The notes beneath the pieces are model-generated. The model worked only from the letters and a program-made list of their open reading frames with translations. It searched no databases and was not told the origin of the DNA. The position numbers and the translations under genes are program-made. A stretch of 64,000 nucleotides of DNA from Halobaculum litoreum. Its GTDB lineage: Archaea; Halobacteriota; Halobacteria; Halobacteriales; Haloferacaceae. Within the stretch, counting starts at the first letter, position 1. Each line of letters starts with the position of its first letter. Of the stretch, positions 41,165-48,003 are shown piece after piece. Location: NCBI RefSeq assembly GCF_030127125.1, contig NZ_CP126156.1, positions 1,550,001 through 1,614,000 of the forward strand. The letters are read 5' to 3'.

Positions 41165-42589
41165 CTACAGCTCCTCGCTCGCGGCCCGGAACAGTCCGTC
41201 GAGGATCTCCGGCGTCGTCGGGTGGTACGCCCGGTCGGGCACCTCGCGCACGTCGGCGCCGCGCTCGACGAGCACCTGCATCGTCTTCGCCATCACGTCG
41301 GCGTGCACGTGGAGGCCGAGGTAGCCCAGCACGGTGCCGTCGGCGCCGTCGACGACGAGGCGCGCGCGGCCCTCCGGGGCGCCCTTCACCCTGAACACGC
41401 CGTCCCGACTGGCCTCGCGCTCCACCTCGATCACGTCGTGGCCGGCCTCGCGGGCCGTGGCGGCGGTGTGGCCGACGCGAGCGTACGGGTACTCCGCCGC
41501 GCCCGCGAACAACACCTCGTGTGTGATCGGGTCGTACGACGCGAGGTCGTCGCCGGCGATGTCGGCGAGGACGTTGTCCGCGGCGAGGAAGCCCTGTTCT
41601 TTCGCGACGTGGAGCAGCGGCTCCCGCCCGTTCGCGTCGCCGACGACGTACGTCCGGCCCGCGTCGTCGTCGACCGCGCGCATCGTCGCGTCGACCCAGT
41701 CCGCGCCGGGGTCGAGTCCCGCGGCGTCGAGGCCGAGCCCGTCGAGGTTCGGCCGGCGGCCGGTGAACAGGAACAGCCGGTCCGCCTCGACGGTCGCGTG
41801 GTCGTCGTCGCGGTCGGTGTGGAGGTGGACGCCGCCGTCGGCGGTGGCCTCGACCGACTGCTCGTGAGTCTCGGTGAGCACCTCGATCCCGAACGCCTCC
41901 CGGTAGAGGTCGAGGAGGTCGTCGCCGAACGCGGGCGGCGCGTCGTCCAGCGGCCGGGCGTCGTGTTCGATCACGGTGAGGTCGACGCCGGCCTCCGCGA
42001 GGTACGCCGACAGTTCGACGCCGACGTAGCCGAACCCCATCACGACGCCCGACTCGGGGAGGGTCGTGGCGTCCAACACGGCCGCGCTGTCGAGCGGGTC
42101 GACGGCGTCGAGCCCCGGGAGGTCGGGGACCTGCGGCGCGGAGCCGGTGGCGACGACGACGTAGTCCGGGGCGAGCCGGTCGCCGCCCGACAGCGCGAGG
42201 TCGCGCGGTCCGACGAACCGGGCCCGCTCGTGGCGGAACGCGACGCCGTCGCGGTCGGCGAGCCCGTGGACGGCCGAGCGCCGGTGGCTCGCGAACGACG
42301 CGACGTGCTCGTCCTTGCGGGCGACGACGGCGTCGAGGTCGATCCCGGCGGGCTCGCCGGGCAGGCGGTCGTCGTGGCGCGCGCGGAAGCGGTGGCCCGC
42401 CGCCGAGAGGACGTCCTTCGAGGGCATACAGCCCCGGAGGATGCAGAGGCCCCCGCCGGGGTCGCCGTCGTCGAGGAGGGTGAGCCGGTCCAGCGGCGCC
42501 GCCGGGTCCGCGGGGTCGGTGTGGTCGGCGAGCCGTTCGGCGGCGGCGACGCCCGCGCTCCCGTACGCGCCGATGATCGCGACGTGCAT
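41165..42589 (-). CDS. Pyridine nucleotide-disulfide oxidoreductase (dihydrolipoyl dehydrogenase/mercuric reductase-like)
   Basis: A 474-residue class I flavoprotein disulfide reductase. The FAD motif is IIGAYGSAGVAAAE at residue 5, and the redox disulfide is LCILRGCMPSKD (C-x4-C, about 48-59). The second nucleotide fold is VVMGFGYVGVELSA (about 185), the FAD Asp is TYVVGDANG near 310, and the C-terminal catalytic His-Glu is YHPTTPEILD near 458. All catalytic parts are present. The C-x4-C spacing is normal although the GxGxxG of the first Rossmann is GAYGSAG. No 2-oxoacid dehydrogenase E2 gene is adjacent, so substrate is open (lipoamide, other disulfide or quinone). Confidence 0.82.
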   Translation of the reverse strand: MHVAIIGAYGSAGVAAAERLADHTDPADPAAPLDRLTLLDDGDPGGGLCILRGCMPSKDVLSAAGHRFRARHDDRLPGEPAGIDLDAVVARKDEHVASFASHRRSAVHGLADRDGVAFRHERARFVGPRDLALSGGDRLAPDYVVVATGSAPQVPDLPGLDAVDPLDSAAVLDATTLPESGVVMGFGYVGVELSAYLAEAGVDLTVIEHDARPLDDAPPAFGDDLLDLYREAFGIEVLTETHEQSVEATADGGVHLHTDRDDDHATVEADRLFLFTGRRPNLDGLGLDAAGLDPGADWVDATMRAVDDDAGRTYVVGDANGREPLLHVAKEQGFLAADNVLADIAGDDLASYDPITHEVLFAGAAEYPYARVGHTAATAREAGHDVIEVEREASRDGVFRVKGAPEGRARLVVDGADGTVLGYLGLHVHADVMAKTMQVLVERGADVREVPDRAYHPTTPEILDGLFRAASEEL

Positions 42590-42682
42590 TCGCGAAAGGT
42601 TCCTCGGCCCGCGACAAGTAGGTGTGCCCGGCTCGCGGCCGGTGACAACAGCGATAACTCCCCCGAGCGTGTAGCAGTCGCC

Positions 42683-43432
42683 GTGAACGCCGCGTTCCGC
42701 GACCGCGCCGTCTACCTCCGCGACGCCGACGCGCTCGTCGTCGCCGACGTCCACGTCGGCCGGGCGGAGGCGTCGGCCGTCGAGTACCCGCTCGGCGAGG
42801 CGAGCGACCTCGCCGCGCGGCTGGGGGCGCTGCTCGACCGCTTCGAGCCCGCGGCGGTCGTGTTCGCGGGCGACGTGCTCCACCGGTTCGACCGCGTGTC
42901 GCTGGCGGTCGCCGACTCGCTGAGCGCCCTCGTCGACGCCTGCCGCGACGCCGGCGCGCGGCCGGTGCTCGTCCGCGGCAACCACGACACCGTGCTCGCG
43001 GACGCGTGGGACGGCCCGATCCACGACGCCTACGACCTCGACCTCCGGGTGCGCGGCGCGCCCGCGGTCGTCCGGCACGGCCACGAGGCGCCGCCGGGCG
43101 ACGAGGACGCCGGCCTGTACGTCGTCGGCCACGACCACCCGACCATCGCCGTCGAGGGGCAGCGGCACCCGTGTGCCCTGTACGCCGAGCGCGCCTACCG
43201 CGGCGCGGACGTGTTGATGCTCCCGGCGTTCAGCCGCCTCGCCGCCGGCGTCGAGGTGAACGGGATGGCGGCCCGCGACTTCCAGTCGCCGTTCGTCACC
43301 GACGCGAACGCGCTCCGCCCCCTCGTCGCGCGCGGCGCCGCCGGCGACGACGCGGCCGGCGGGGCGGACGACGAGGGCGACGACGCCCCCTTGGAGTTCC
43401 CGCCGTTGGGCCGGTTCCGCCGCATGCTGTGA
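42683..43432 (+). CDS. Calcineurin-like metallophosphoesterase
   Basis: A GTG start at 42683 gives a 249-residue phosphoesterase. All blocks of the fold are seen: VVADVHVGR (residue about 21, D-x-H), VVFAGDVLHRF (about 60, GD), VLVRGNHDTVL (about 92, GNHD) and HGHEA/VVGHDHPTIAV (about 133 and 150, GH-x-H). It matches the archaeal ICC-like group. It starts 93 bases after the divergent oxidoreductase start. The substrate is unknown. Confidence 0.85.
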   Translation: MNAAFRDRAVYLRDADALVVADVHVGRAEASAVEYPLGEASDLAARLGALLDRFEPAAVVFAGDVLHRFDRVSLAVADSLSALVDACRDAGARPVLVRGNHDTVLADAWDGPIHDAYDLDLRVRGAPAVVRHGHEAPPGDEDAGLYVVGHDHPTIAVEGQRHPCALYAERAYRGADVLMLPAFSRLAAGVEVNGMAARDFQSPFVTDANALRPLVARGAAGDDAAGGADDEGDDAPLEFPPLGRFRRML

Positions 43433-43474
43433 GCCGGGCAACGCTTTTGCCGCCGTGCGTGTCACTCGGTACCG

Positions 43475-43693
43475 ATGGCCGCGATCAACGAGTGCCTCGG
43501 CTGCGGCGTCGACTTCGACCACTCGGACGGCGAGTGCCCCGAGTGCGGGTGGAGCGCCCGCGAGTTCGCCGGACGCGGGCGCTACGGGCTGGCGAAGGCG
43601 GGCCACGGCGAACCGGAAGCGGAGGGCGACGGCGACCGGAGCGGGTCGTCGGGCGGCCCGCCGCCGGGGCCGGACGGCCTGATCGGGTTCTGA
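43475..43693 (+). CDS. Small zinc-finger protein
   Basis: A 72-residue protein. Four cysteines form a zinc ribbon in the first 25 residues (ECLGCGVDFDH and GECPECGWSA: C-x2-C and C-x2-C). A Gly/Ser/Pro-rich, probably disordered tail follows. Many such one-finger proteins exist in haloarchaea; they may bind nucleic acid or partners. A TATA-like ACGCTTTTGCC at 43440 lets the ATG at 43475 be leaderless. Confidence 0.7.
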   Translation: MAAINECLGCGVDFDHSDGECPECGWSAREFAGRGRYGLAKAGHGEPEAEGDGDRSGSSGGPPPGPDGLIGF

Positions 43694-43717: not shown

Positions 43718-44533
43718 TCAGTCGGAGAACGTCGACAGCGGCGGCCGGTCGTCGGCGTGGCGCGCGTCGTTGAGCGCGTCACACACCGTCCCCTGCCCGC
43801 CCATGTTGACGCCGGCGAGACGGGTCCGCCGGCGCACCAACTCGAACGCCTCGCCGTCGAACGGGTCGCCCTCCGGCGTGCGGAACAGCTCGGGGTGCTC
43901 GTCGTCGAGCAGCCCCGTGGCGGCCGCCTTCTCGCGGTACCGGACGAGCGGTTCGGCGTCGACCGCGACGGCGACGGCGCCGTCGCGCAGCCACACGGGC
44001 ACCGTCCCGTCGGTCGCCTCGTCGACGCGGACCGCCTCGACGGCGAGGTCGGCGATCTGGTCGTGGGTGAGCCCCGCGTCCAGCAGCGCCCCGGTGGCGT
44101 CGTGCTGGCGGGCGATCCGCGCCTTCCGGTCCAACTCCGCGCGCACCGGCGCCACGTCGCCGTCGGCGTCCGGGAACGCCTCGCCGAACGGGAGCCCCTC
44201 GTTGATCCCGCGGTTGATCTCCCGTTCGTGCATGTGCTCGCGGAGCTCGACCGTCACCTCCGCGACCCCCGGGAGCGACGCCACCGCGTCGCGGGCGTCG
44301 CCGGCCATCATCCACGCGAAGGCGGGCGAGCACCACGCCGTCGGGAGCGTGAACGCGACGAACACCGCGTCGCCGTCGGCGTCGGCGTCCGCGGTGATGC
44401 GGATATCCTCGATGTAGTCCAGTTCGACGATGGACGTGTCGAGTTCGGGGTCGGTGACGCGGTCGAGCCGCTCGCGGACCGCCGCGGGCGTCGCCGCCGC
44501 CGTCCCCTCGGCGCGGGACCGGTCCGGCGACAT
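43718..44533 (-). CDS. DUF59/MIP18-domain protein, metal-cluster assembly type
   Basis: A 271-residue protein. Residues about 15-105 are a DUF59 (MIP18/PaaD) domain: RLDRVTDPELDTSIVELDYI with the conserved D-P-E-L, TLPTAWCSPAFAWMMAGDAR near 69 with the reactive-type Cys, and VTVELREHM near 102. The C-terminal half is a helical extension (ARIARQHDATGALLDAGLTH, GVNMGGQGTVCDALNDA) with another Cys. The same domain pair occurs beside actinobacterial propane monooxygenase genes, where it probably helps metal-centre assembly. Its ATG overlaps the amidohydrolase stop by one base (TGATG), so the two are translationally linked. Confidence 0.8.
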   Translation of the reverse strand: MSPDRSRAEGTAAATPAAVRERLDRVTDPELDTSIVELDYIEDIRITADADADGDAVFVAFTLPTAWCSPAFAWMMAGDARDAVASLPGVAEVTVELREHMHEREINRGINEGLPFGEAFPDADGDVAPVRAELDRKARIARQHDATGALLDAGLTHDQIADLAVEAVRVDEATDGTVPVWLRDGAVAVAVDAEPLVRYREKAAATGLLDDEHPELFRTPEGDPFDGEAFELVRRRTRLAGVNMGGQGTVCDALNDARHADDRPPLSTFSD

Positions 44534-45603
44534 CAGTCGTCGGCGGGGGTCGCGCTGGTCCCCCCGGCGTAGTGGTCGGCGAGGCCGAACTCCTGCGTGA
44601 GCGGGTCGCTGCGGAACTCCTCCTTCTTGGCCTCGATGTCGATATCGTACAGCTCCGCGGCGTTCTCGCCGAGGATCTTCCGCTTCGTGTCGACCCCGAA
44701 CTCGACGCCGTACTCGTCTTTCTGCTCGTCGGTCAGCTCGGCGTCCATGAACGTCTCCACCAGCCAGTCGGGGTTCCACAGCGCGTAGTCCGACCCGAAC
44801 AGCAGGCGGTCCTCGCCGAGCCAGAACAGGAGTTCGCCCATGATCTCGCCGAACTTGCGCGGGCGGTGGACCGCCAGCGGCGCCGCGACCGCGAGGCCGC
44901 CGTACACGTTCGGCTCCTGGGCGGCGATCCAGCAGAAGTCGTCGAGTCGCGGCAGGCCGACGTGCTCGACGACGAAGTTCAGCTCCGGGAACGAGGTGGC
45001 GGCGTCGTCGACGTCGGCCACGTCGAACGCGTCGCGGTTGAGCGGGCGGATCGTCGGCCCCTTGTGCGGGTGGATGTTCTCGATACCGAGTTCGGAGCAC
45101 TTCTCGAGGAACTCGAACGACTCCTGGCTGTCGAGGCGCCACCCCTTCGAGTCGCCGTTCCACTCGGCGGTGTACAGCTTCACCCCCTGGATCTCGTACT
45201 CCTCCTTCTGGCGCTCCAGCTCCCGCATCCCCGCCTCGCCGTCGCGCGGGTCGAACCGGCCGTTGAGCACGAACCGCTCGGGGTAGCGCTCGGCCAACTC
45301 GGCGTTGTCCTCGATGGTGTTGAACCCGTCCGCGTAGAAGTCGCTGAGGTACGTCGGCTGGAAGATGCCCATGTCGACCGCCGCGTTGCCGAACAGGTCC
45401 TGGGCCATCCGGTCGGCGCCGTACTTCCGGTACTCCTCCAGCGACCACTGCTTCTCCTCGGGCGTGAACCCGGTGTGGTAGTCGTAGAAGCACTGGATGA
45501 ACTGCTCACCCCCCTCGTGGGTGACGTTCTCCTCGCTCGCGTCCCACAGGTGGAGGTGCGAGTCGATCACGAACAGCTCCTCCCCCTCGTCTGTCACGTA
45601 CAT
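44533..45603 (-). CDS. Amidohydrolase-family (TIM-barrel) protein
   Basis: A 356-residue amidohydrolase_2-type TIM barrel. Metal-site residues are visible: DSHLHLWDA (residue about 14, H-x-H), a His in IENIHPHKGPT near 178, VEHVGLP near 213 and FGSDYALWNPDW near 280 (late Asp). IFQPTYLSDFY and GVKLYTAEWNGDSKGW are very like the amidohydrolase that follows prm/mim propane monooxygenase genes of actinobacteria, as remembered. The reaction is unknown; it may act as a chaperone-like helper or on a metabolite. It is the first gene of the minus unit and is divergent from the alcohol dehydrogenase gene 116 bases away. Confidence 0.82.
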   Translation of the reverse strand: MYVTDEGEELFVIDSHLHLWDASEENVTHEGGEQFIQCFYDYHTGFTPEEKQWSLEEYRKYGADRMAQDLFGNAAVDMGIFQPTYLSDFYADGFNTIEDNAELAERYPERFVLNGRFDPRDGEAGMRELERQKEEYEIQGVKLYTAEWNGDSKGWRLDSQESFEFLEKCSELGIENIHPHKGPTIRPLNRDAFDVADVDDAATSFPELNFVVEHVGLPRLDDFCWIAAQEPNVYGGLAVAAPLAVHRPRKFGEIMGELLFWLGEDRLLFGSDYALWNPDWLVETFMDAELTDEQKDEYGVEFGVDTKRKILGENAAELYDIDIEAKKEEFRSDPLTQEFGLADHYAGGTSATPADD

Positions 45604-45719
45604 CTGTGGTGCGCTAGCACGACTGTCGGACCATAAACACCATAGTCGATGATTTGATATATTTCACGAGGCGGGAACTACAGGAAATTTTATCAGTAAT
45701 GTGTGGTAGCACTACACAC
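45604..45719. promoter_or_regulatory. Divergent promoter region with inverted repeats, amidohydrolase/alcohol dehydrogenase
   Basis: This is the most AT-rich intergenic stretch seen here. For the plus gene, AATTTTATC (45686-45694) gives a transcript start near 45718. For the minus gene, GTGTTTATGG (minus strand, about 45642-45632) gives one near 45609. Between each TATA and its start is an inverted repeat: TGTGTGGTAGCACTACACACA (split here as TGTGTGGTAG and CTACACACA around CA) at 45700-45720, and GTGCGCTAGCAC at 45607-45618. Both contain TAGCAC. One regulator may bind both and control the three genes together. Confidence 0.5.
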
Positions 45720-46760
45720 ATGCGAGCCGCGAGACTCCACGAGTACACCGACGACATGGCGCACGCGTTGACGATCGACGAGGTGGACCGACCGACGGTC
45801 GAGGCGTCCGACGACGTGATCGTCGAGGTCGAGGGCGCGGGCTGGTGCCAGACGGACAACCACATCGTCGAGGGGATGTGGCGGGAGTACGTCCCGCAGG
45901 AACTCCCGCTCACGCTCGGCCACGAGAACGCCGGCACCGTCGTCGAGGTCGGGTCGGAAGTGAACACCGTGTCGGTCGGCGACAGCGTGATCTGCCACCC
46001 GGTGATGACCTGCGGCACGTGCCGCCCGTGCCGGCAGGGGGAGGACATGTACTGCGAGGACGTCCGCTTCCCGGGCCTCACACACGACGGCGGCTTCGCG
46101 GAGTTCCTCCACACGAACGAGCGCGCGGTCATCCCGCTCCCGGGCGGCGTCGACACGACCGACATCGCCCCCCACGCCGACGCGGGGATCACGGCGTACC
46201 ACGCGACGAAGAAGGCGGTCCGGGAGCTGAACCCGGGCGACACCGCGGTCGTCATCGGCGTCGGCGGCCTCGGCCACATCGGCCTGCAGTGTCTCGACGC
46301 GATGAGCGCGGCCGACATCGTCGCGCTCGACGTGAAGGAGTCCGCCCGCGACCTGGCCGAGGAGTTGGGCGCCCGCCACACGGTCGACCCCGCGACGGAG
46401 GACGTGGCGAGCGTGATCGCCGACCTCACCGACGAGGTCGGTGCCCGGCAGGTGGTCGACTTCGTGGGGCGCGACGAGACCACGGCGCTGGCGCCCGACA
46501 TCGTCGCCGCCGGCGGCGACCACCACATCGTCGGCTACGGCGGCCACATCCACGAGCCCGCACAGGCGCTCGTCGACGGCGAGTTCAGCTACAAGGGGAC
46601 GCTGGTGGGCCGCTACACCGAGTTGCAGGAGCTCGTCGCCCTCGTCGACCGCGGCATGGTCGAGCTGCGGACGAGTCGCTACGACCTCGACGAGATCAAC
46701 ACCGTCGCCGAGCGCCTCGAACACGGCGAGATCGAGGGGCGAGCGGTCCTCACGCCGTAA
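45720..46760 (+). CDS. Zinc-dependent NAD(P) alcohol dehydrogenase
   Basis: A 346-residue medium-chain dehydrogenase. Catalytic zinc ligands are Cys43 (GWCQTDNH) and His68 (GHENAG). The structural zinc is bound by Cys98, 101, 104 and 112 (TCGTCRPCRQGEDMYC). The nucleotide motif is GVGGLGHIG near 180, and LDVKES follows, with Asp favouring NAD. The ATG at 45720 is leaderless relative to TATA at 45686; an ATG at 45699 would lie upstream of the transcript start. The gene is the third partner of the DUF59/amidohydrolase pair: in actinobacterial propane oxidation clusters the same three families stand together. There the dehydrogenase oxidises a short secondary alcohol. Confidence 0.88.
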   Translation: MRAARLHEYTDDMAHALTIDEVDRPTVEASDDVIVEVEGAGWCQTDNHIVEGMWREYVPQELPLTLGHENAGTVVEVGSEVNTVSVGDSVICHPVMTCGTCRPCRQGEDMYCEDVRFPGLTHDGGFAEFLHTNERAVIPLPGGVDTTDIAPHADAGITAYHATKKAVRELNPGDTAVVIGVGGLGHIGLQCLDAMSAADIVALDVKESARDLAEELGARHTVDPATEDVASVIADLTDEVGARQVVDFVGRDETTALAPDIVAAGGDHHIVGYGGHIHEPAQALVDGEFSYKGTLVGRYTELQELVALVDRGMVELRTSRYDLDEINTVAERLEHGEIEGRAVLTP

Positions 46761-46869: not shown

Positions 46870-48003
46870 ATGAGCGACGCCGACGCCGGGGCGACCCCGG
46901 ACGACGACGCCGTCCCCGACCCCATGGGCGACGTGTACCGCGTGCTGGGCCCCGACGGCGAGGTGCGCGGCGAGGTGCCCGACCTCGCGGACGACGCGCT
47001 GCTGGCCGTCTACCGCGACATGGTGACCGCGCGCCGCTTCGACGAGCGCGCCGTCAGCCTCCAGCGACAGGGGCGGATCGGCACCTACGCCGCCATCGAG
47101 GGGCAGGAGGCCAGTTCCGTCGCCGCGACCCACGCCTTACGCCGCGACGACCCGGTGTTCTACCAGTACCGCGAGCACGGCGCCGTCATCGCCCGCGGGT
47201 TCCCCGCCGACTACCTCGCCTACTGGATGGGCCACGAGTCGGGCACTGCCGGCCTCGCCGACATCGACGTGTTCCCGCTCAACATCGGCATCGGCGCGCA
47301 CCTCCCGCACGCCGTCGGGGCGGCGATGGCGTTCGACTACCGGGACGAGGACCGCGTCGCCTGCGCCCACTTCGGCGACGGCGCCACGAGCGAGGGCGAC
47401 TTCCACGAGGCGCTCAACTTCGCCGGCGTGTTCGACGCGCCGAGCGTGTTCGTCTGTCACAACAACGGGTGGGCCATCTCGGTCCCCCGCGAGGAGCAGA
47501 CCGCCAGCCCCACGCTCGCCGAGAAGGCCGAGGCGTACGGCTTCGAGGGCGTCCGGGTCGACGGGATGGACCCGCTGGCGGTGTACCGCGTCGTGAACGA
47601 GGCCGCGCGGAAGGCCCGCGGCGAGACGGACGGCGACCACCGCCCGACGCTCATCGAGACGGTGGAGTACCGCTTCGGCGCGCACACGACCGCCGACGAC
47701 CCGAGCGCCTACCGCGACGACGACGCGGGCGAGGCGTGGCGCGCGTGGGACCCGATCCCGCGGCTGGAGGGGTTCCTCCGCAACGAGGGGATCGCCGACG
47801 ACGACGCGATCGAGGCGGTCCGCGAGGAGGCCGACGACCGCGTCGCCGCCGTCATCGACGAGGCGGAGGGGGTGGAGGCCGACCCGGCCGACATGTTCGC
47901 GGACGTGTACGCCGAGACGCCTGCGGAGTTGGAGCGACAGAAGGAGGGCCTGCTCGCCGCGATCGAACGCCACGGGCGCGACGCGTTCCTGCGCGAGGAG
48001 TAG
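46870..48003 (+). CDS. Thiamine-dependent 2-oxoacid dehydrogenase E1 alpha subunit, orphan
   Basis: A 377-residue E1-alpha. The TPP motif is HFGDGATSEGDFHEALNFAG (residues about 171-190) with the closing NNGWAIS near 203. IEGQEASSVAA (about 79) and YREHGAVIARG (about 100) are family hallmarks. E1-alpha needs an E1-beta partner, but none follows; the next gene is convergent and unrelated. Haloarchaeal E1/E2 genes may work on branched-chain or other 2-oxoacids, but their in vivo role is poorly known. This copy must use a distant beta subunit or act alone. Confidence 0.85.
   Translation: MSDADAGATPDDDAVPDPMGDVYRVLGPDGEVRGEVPDLADDALLAVYRDMVTARRFDERAVSLQRQGRIGTYAAIEGQEASSVAATHALRRDDPVFYQYREHGAVIARGFPADYLAYWMGHESGTAGLADIDVFPLNIGIGAHLPHAVGAAMAFDYRDEDRVACAHFGDGATSEGDFHEALNFAGVFDAPSVFVCHNNGWAISVPREEQTASPTLAEKAEAYGFEGVRVDGMDPLAVYRVVNEAARKARGETDGDHRPTLIETVEYRFGAHTTADDPSAYRDDDAGEAWRAWDPIPRLEGFLRNEGIADDDAIEAVREEADDRVAAVIDEAEGVEADPADMFADVYAETPAELERQKEGLLAAIERHGRDAFLREE

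Follow-up and report, generated by a model that had tools for sequence, protein, structure and literature searches.

The 64,000-nucleotide stretch of Halobaculum litoreum DNA analysed here (the window; contig NZ_CP126156.1, positions 1,550,001–1,614,000) carries, at window positions 43718–46760, three adjacent genes encoding an amidohydrolase (AH), a long protein with a DUF59 domain (long DUF59) and an alcohol dehydrogenase (ADH) (Table 1). The AH and DUF59 genes are read from the same strand, with one base common to the TGA stop codon of the former and the ATG start codon of the latter, and the ADH gene is read in the opposite direction. An earlier note on this DNA had described such a trio, divergently arranged around one control region and resembling the accessory genes of propane and acetone monooxygenase (prm/mim) operons. 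The families, the strands, the outer coordinates and the divergent layout are all borne out by the open reading frames (ORFs) and Pfam matches. The note had offered two options for the function, i.e. a hydroxylase encoded elsewhere in the genome or a stand-alone role, and the latter emerges as the better of the two.

Table 1. Features of the trio locus and its flanks, in window coordinates
Feature	Position	Strand	Details
Flavoprotein disulfide reductase gene	41165–43606	−	flanks the trio on the DUF59 side
DUF59 gene, long MIP18-type Fe–S assembly protein	43718–44533	−	271 aa; Pfam FeS_assembly_P 3.5e-14
Amidohydrolase gene (AH), Amidohydro_2 PF04909, ACMSD-like TIM barrel	44533–45603	−	356 aa; Pfam 1.6e-50
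Divergent AH/ADH gap, control region	45604–45719		116 bp
Candidate operator copy 1, GTGCGCTAGCAC	45609–45620	+	beside the AH start
Candidate operator copy 2, GTGTGGTAGCAC	45701–45712	+	beside the ADH start
ADH, Zn-dependent medium-chain alcohol dehydrogenase	45720–46760	+	346 aa from ATG 45720; ADH_N 1.4e-27, ADH_zinc_N 1.5e-20
Pyruvate-dehydrogenase-type E1-alpha gene	46870–48003	+	flanks the trio on the ADH side

The linkage of these genes is conserved in haloarchaea. Among 99 genomes of the order, H. litoreum included, 30 encode an AH orthologue (E < 1e-130), and a long DUF59 gene adjoins it in 29 of them; in the 30th (G063) 94 bases separate AH from the end of its contig, and this 32nd locus (L025) was left out. 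The 31 haloarchaeal loci retained stem from the 29 genomes together with plasmids of Halomicrococcus and Halorarius. AH and DUF59 occur together in all 31, and 30 have an ADH (score threshold 230 bits; the ADH of L006, cut by the locus edge, scores 210 bits), L065 being the locus without one. Coordinates were compared for 29 ADH-bearing loci, a set without L019: in 27 of them the ADH and AH genes diverge, and L049 and L050 display the order AH–DUF59–ADH on a single strand. In L030 (G036) the match to AH is divided between two frames, as is that to ADH in L007 (G010), and these genes may be broken or mis-sequenced; in genome G014 the AH–DUF59 pair is present with no ADH beside it.

No monooxygenase hydroxylase accompanies the haloarchaeal trio. 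PF02332, the family of both hydroxylase subunits (large and small) of soluble di-iron monooxygenases, was not found in the H. litoreum genome (3.04 Mb), nor in any of the 99 genomes of the order; as the former is only 86% complete, the 99-genome result is the stronger one. As a positive control, the same family matched four of five bacterial plasmid records (Aminobacter, Caballeronia, Rhodococcus aetherivorans and Thermomicrobium roseum; not Peribacillus), with the T. roseum gene located ~370 kb from its trio. Likewise, three GroEL probes gave no match at any of the 31 haloarchaeal loci. Of the components of a prm/mim operon, homologues of AH, DUF59 and ADH are present in the cluster, but the di-iron hydroxylase and GroEL are not, and the suggestion of a hydroxylase elsewhere in the genome does not hold up against the genome-wide search.

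The module also exists oxygenase-free outside the haloarchaea. A set of 86 bacterial loci was assembled from the best 80 of at least 574 AH relatives, using an alignment of nine AHs (Thermomicrobium-led) as query, and from six plasmid loci, which represent 6 of the 15 bacterial plasmid records with an AH of ≥50% identity. Long DUF59 accompanies AH in 85 of the 86 loci, in both gene orders, and in the single miss (L069) AH lies 156 bases from a contig end; all 17 plasmid records with an AH of ≥50% identity have an adjoining DUF59 match. A hydroxylase gene is found in 59 of the bacterial loci, another two (L078 and L093) are short contigs with GroEL, and 25 are without hydroxylase and without GroEL. 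An ADH is kept in 15 of these 25, in one case cut short. Ten whole genomes behind the hydroxylase-free loci, of 22 chromosomal ones, were searched for PF02332, which was found elsewhere in the genome in three (Rhizobium Q54, Acidiphilium rubrum and a Rhodospirillaceae metagenome-assembled genome) and not found in seven, for which completeness figures are not given (Thermomicrobium, Thermoflexus, Chloroflexus, Thermogemmatispora and three Bacillota). One of the three plasmids behind such loci also carries it elsewhere (T. roseum), giving 4 of 13 for genomes and plasmids combined.

These searches bear directly on the proposal that the trio serves to mature a di-iron monooxygenase whose genes lie elsewhere, or is the remnant of a lost prm operon. 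The occurrence of the same families in prm/mim operons, and of a hydroxylase elsewhere in 3 of the 10 genomes and on the T. roseum plasmid, would be in line with this proposal. However, PF02332 is missing from all 99 genomes of the window's order and from 7 of the 10 bacterial genomes, and the outgroup-rooted AH tree described below places free copies outside the linked ones. We consider the proposal largely refuted, and its residual probability as minimal.

Annotated plasmids illustrate the range of contexts. AH and DUF59 lie inside full prm-like operons in Aminobacter, Caballeronia and Ponticoccus, and are followed downstream by ADH and GroEL in R. aetherivorans. In T. roseum, ADH alone stands beside the pair, with an IclR-type regulator annotated beside the trio. 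In Peribacillus a DJ-1 gene accompanies the pair, and in Rhizobium N324 a glyoxalase does. The identification of the trio families with those of prm/mim operons is supported by the Aminobacter, Caballeronia and Rhodococcus plasmids, as well as by PMC6849523, which lists an amidohydrolase, a 'protein of unknown function', an alcohol dehydrogenase and GroEL as accessory genes in Gordonia TY-5 and Mycobacterium. According to the same paper, the amidohydrolase, unknown-function and ADH genes of Mycobacterium sp. AT1 are located away from the monooxygenase, and GroEL stays with it. With 2-hydroxyisobutyrate as growth substrate, A. chiangmaiensis devotes 3.2% of its proteome to the Mim-cluster amidohydrolase and 6.1% to Adh1, corresponding to 1.6 and 1.3 times their respective levels on acetone (PMC7176365). 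Because such enzyme-like abundance fits catalysis better, a catalytic role for AH is preferred over one in maturation. No tested role for either the amidohydrolase or the DUF59 gene in propane and acetone operons emerged from the literature consulted, which was mostly non-subscription.

The history of the module was followed in trees of 117 AH rows, with six distant AHs as outgroup, 115 DUF59 rows and 98 ADH rows, for all of which a minimum score and length were required. These are quick trees, and those of DUF59 and ADH were rooted on haloarchaea by choice. In all three, the haloarchaeal rows cluster together, with no bacterial sequence among them (SH-aLRT 99, 100 and 100 for AH, DUF59 and ADH, respectively), which argues for haloarchaeal inheritance of the whole module and against its transfer from the actinobacteria in the sample (six loci, none from Gordonia or Mycobacterium), whose rows are placed with other bacteria. 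Transfer from actinobacteria, which the earlier note had raised, is consequently not supported. The note had also named unrelated branches, with no shared history, as an outcome that would speak against its reading; what was found instead is homology of each of the three proteins to its oxygenase-linked counterparts, and tree shapes that agree. Oxygenase-linked rows are scattered among oxygenase-free ones, with 5, 6 and 5 label changes in the AH, DUF59 and ADH trees, of which the starred branches force 4, 3 and 5. As the linked rows do not form one group, oxygenase linkage appears to have been gained or lost more than once. The simplest reading is a stand-alone module that was recruited by bacterial oxygenase operons. 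The AH and DUF59 trees are particularly close, their distances correlating with r 0.88 among 84 bacteria and 0.60 among 29 haloarchaea, and none of 999 permutations reached values as high, in a test uncorrected for shared species history and excluding L007 and L030, whose rows are odd or split.

The predicted model of AH is an ACMSD-type barrel (pLDDT 88.9). Its Foldseek matches are led by the uncharacterised structure 3irs and include dihydroxybenzoate decarboxylases and LigJ hydratase, and 3irs is also the sole significant match in a sequence-only search of solved structures. H16, H18, H180, H214 and D272 (P0002 numbering) are putative metal ligands, an assignment we take from the known superfamily pattern. 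Haloarchaeal copies keep them in 30–31 of 31 cases, operon-type copies in 61 of 61 and free bacterial copies in 23–25 of 25. The model alignments used 47 of 80 bacterial AH rows and 63 of 79 bacterial DUF59 rows. Both the fold and the H-x-H, H, H, D pattern place AH within ACMSD-type PF04909. It shares the fold and the ligand pattern with the ACMSD/dihydroxybenzoate decarboxylase/LigJ hydratase group, at 12–20% identity among the 50 structural alignments listed, and differs from this group in the conserved K181 and H178 and in being paired with an Fe–S assembly gene. The AHs of Peribacillus and Jeotgalibacillus (L033 and L140) have alanine in place of H18, and their loci contain a DJ-1/PfpI gene instead of an ADH.

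A pointer to the metal comes from distant AH relatives outside the trio type, 27–37% identical to the trio AH where measured. A short DUF59 gene (121–141 aa) stands before or after the distant AH in Natrinema, Natronorubrum, Haloarcula and Bradyrhizobium, and in Shinella a NifU-family gene overlaps the distant AH in place of DUF59. Of 20 such loci, 16 have the short DUF59 (seven supplied the hidden Markov model, leaving nine independent), three have a NifU-like protein (one supplied the query) and one, L153 with UbiD/UbiX neighbours, has neither. As a control, DUF59 was found in 0 of 13 non-trio PF04909 loci (within flanks of ~1.5 kb to the left and right, or less where a contig ends), and in 17 of 17 trio-type loci by the same search. 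This control comprises all 30 PF04909 loci from a 40-genome search, further PF04909 matches without loci falling outside it. The pairing of AH with Fe–S-assembly genes of two unrelated families is a newly seen partnership; a search mostly without subscription literature found no relevant work that links an amidohydrolase to DUF59 or MIP18. Since two unrelated Fe–S-assembly families pair with one amidohydrolase lineage, the partnership suggests that iron is handled for AH itself. Of the 16 distant AHs paired with DUF59, all retain H18, H180, K181 and H214, and 15 retain D14; valine replaces H16 and glycine D272 in 15 of 16, and the three NifU-paired AHs have glutamate for D272.

Two observations on these relatives are added for completeness. 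The NifU-like partner of the Shinella/Ensifer/Pararhizobium-type AHs (L152, L188 and L189) contains a CxxC motif and is 98 aa long in Shinella. Pairs of distant AH and short DUF59 in haloarchaea (L147, L150, L151 and L155–L161) derive from 7 of the 99 genomes and three annotated plasmids, and SDR, aldehyde dehydrogenase, thiolase or acyl-CoA synthetase genes lie near the plasmid-borne ones.

An iron requirement could also mean that AH itself holds an Fe–S cluster via the conserved cysteines C38, C169 column and C224. These are kept in 114, 109 and 116 of the 117 trio-type AHs, respectively, and the AH partners do belong to Fe–S assembly families. However, across the 19 distant DUF59- or NifU-paired AHs a cysteine appears only once in the three columns (in the C224 column of 1 of the 16 DUF59-paired proteins), and a cluster in AH is therefore judged quite unlikely.

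The long DUF59 protein consists of an N-terminal DUF59 domain (residues ~17–95) and a C-terminal helical domain (~100–262), and its model (pLDDT 90.4) displays a MIP18-like N-domain and a separate helical C-domain. PF01883 scores above cut-off in the window's protein and is matched in 63 of 64 members, with C68 invariant in 64 of 64 aligned members, so that both the DUF59 domain and its conserved cysteine are in place. The N-terminal domain, the D-P-E motif and the cysteine are common to SufT, PaaD and CIAO2 (DUF59, MIP18 family). In contrast, long DUF59 reaches only 28.5–29.2 bits against NCBIfam cut-offs of 143–203, has an additional ~165-residue C-terminal domain, and is linked to an amidohydrolase. 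Identity with PaaD was considered and rejected (29.2 bits against a cut-off of 180, with no paa match in the 10 ORFs scanned around it).

The C-terminal domain is similar to tyrosine recombinase catalytic domains (Foldseek match to XerA, probability 0.98, E 0.02). Comparison with 10 haloarchaeal integrases by hhalign gave a score of 27.7 (P 3e-5, probability 46%), with reversed, shuffled and unrelated controls at ≤7.4. Pfam Phage_integrase matches only 2 of 64 long-DUF59 members (best E 0.074), and the GLR-type arginine, which we take to be a tyrosine-recombinase motif, is replaced. The domain is probably a dead, re-used recombinase fold. A protein encoded in G014 (C3:2410928–2411482) matches only residues 79–259 of long DUF59 (47% identity), i.e. 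mainly the C-terminal domain.

Rather than a loading factor that departs, the DUF59 protein might be a permanent subunit of AH, or might deliver a metal other than iron. The close agreement of the AH and DUF59 trees, the one-base gene overlap and the large extra C-terminal domain, a possible docking surface, would all suit such an arrangement. Still, the substitution of short DUF59 or NifU-like proteins beside distant AHs suits a common assembly function better than a fixed subunit, and on this basis the alternative appears unlikely.

The third protein belongs to the Zn-ADH sequence family. Its best solved relative by sequence is 1h2b from Aeropyrum (337 bits), and others include 2xaa from R. 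ruber, 'secondary alcohol dehydrogenase, ADH-A' (188 bits).

In combination, these results make it rather probable, though well short of certain, that the trio constitutes a stand-alone catabolic module, running from ADH via a carbonyl compound to AH, with DUF59 as dedicated iron or Fe–S loader. The ADH would oxidise a small alcohol, probably secondary or alpha-hydroxy, and the carbonyl product would be converted by AH, a TIM-barrel metalloenzyme of the ACMSD/decarboxylase/hydratase type, through hydration, C–C hydrolysis or decarboxylation, once loaded with iron or Fe–S by its long DUF59 partner. In bacteria the module may have been placed within or close to operons for soluble di-iron monooxygenases, and would there process the products of propane or acetone oxidation, and haloarchaea would use it alone on environmental alcohols or ketones. 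Iron as the AH metal, like the direction, substrate and product of the pathway, is what we infer.

Several points weigh against this reading. The five-ligand set of the trio AH is the ordinary one, with which related enzymes usually bind Zn or Mn. ADH is the looser partner: it was not found beside 10 of the 25 hydroxylase-free bacterial AHs (L069, at a contig end, among them) and 1 of 31 haloarchaeal ones, and AH and ADH tree distances correlate with r 0.39 among 69 bacteria and 0.52 in haloarchaea. The bacterial loci were selected by AH, which places AH-free cases outside the sample, and in 10 of the 25 hydroxylase-free cases contig ends limit the stretch to less than 17 kb, so that a hydroxylase may lie just beyond it. 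The AH root rests on long-branched relatives (bacterial group SH-aLRT 90), and the haloarchaea-rooted DUF59 and ADH trees show a separate group, not its depth. Finally, the commonest non-trio neighbour occurs in only 9 of 23 haloarchaeal loci, and the context consequently does not give the pathway.

Alternatively, the module might mainly dispose of toxic alpha-oxoaldehydes, e.g. methylglyoxal. Glyoxalase (L038) and DJ-1/PfpI proteins (L033 and L140) are among the neighbours at hydroxylase-free loci, and Adh1 is proposed to oxidise acetol to methylglyoxal in PMC7176365. However, both DJ-1-linked AHs, with their substituted H18 and no ADH at the locus, may differ in function, and no neighbour family exceeds 9 of the 23 haloarchaeal loci, where glyoxalase and DJ-1 neighbours were not searched directly. 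Detoxification as the main role is accordingly seen as distinctly improbable.

A bolder extension, to which we assign a very low probability, is that AH with DUF59 or a NifU-like protein represents an undescribed two-component class of iron enzymes on the amidohydrolase fold, whose trio form, together with its ADH, would cleave small hydroxyketones (at C–C, O2-dependent or hydrolytic) and would include the gene for 'acetol monooxygenase'. This enzyme was reportedly described by Hartmans and de Bont in 1986 as converting acetol to acetate and formaldehyde, and to our knowledge it has long been known without an assigned gene.

Within the divergent gap, the near-palindrome GTGYGNTAGCAC occurs twice, 92 bp apart, and these are its only occurrences in the 64-kb window. 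The spacing is identical in G004 (L002), and a single copy is found in the matching gap of Halomicrococcus (L031). Against an operator function, the exact pattern was not found at the loci of other congeners, and it occurs once each in L111 and L158, the latter copy upstream of a distant AH. The motif was derived from the gap alignment itself, and shuffle statistics are hence post hoc.

Neighbour clustering covered 23 haloarchaeal and 25 bacterial loci. A pathway deduced from the haloarchaeal neighbours was rejected, as those that recur look like lineage synteny (9 of 23 loci at most). In 5 of the 23 loci an E1-alpha gene is the neighbour of ADH, and a flavoprotein disulfide reductase gene is present in 5. 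No E1-beta was recognised among the neighbouring ORFs scanned around the window's E1-alpha gene, and since the genome contains four other E1-alpha homologues, no pathway was built on it. An IclR-like regulator, judged by eye with no family search, is found in 5 of the 23 loci, in 3 of these near the trio.

An independent module, present in haloarchaea and several bacterial groups, separates the function of AH and DUF59 from the oxygenase and renders it testable in haloarchaea with no oxygenase interfering. The amidohydrolase superfamily is usually treated as one of Zn or Mn enzymes; an AH lineage paired with two unrelated Fe–S-assembly families predicts an iron-dependent branch within it.

Compared with the prm/mim operons, the haloarchaeal trio has a homologous AH, 50–63% identical to the bacterial copies and nearly gap-free, as well as homologous long DUF59 (27–40% identity) and ADH (44–50%), and the gene order of L049 and L050 is that of R. 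aetherivorans. It differs in that no hydroxylase or GroEL was found with it and in that its ADH gene is usually divergent. The families and their grouping are thus known; what is new is an oxygenase-free module of its own and the partnership between an amidohydrolase and an iron factor. The trio is better framed as an independent module that is also carried by oxygenase operons than as a helper set that lost its oxygenase.

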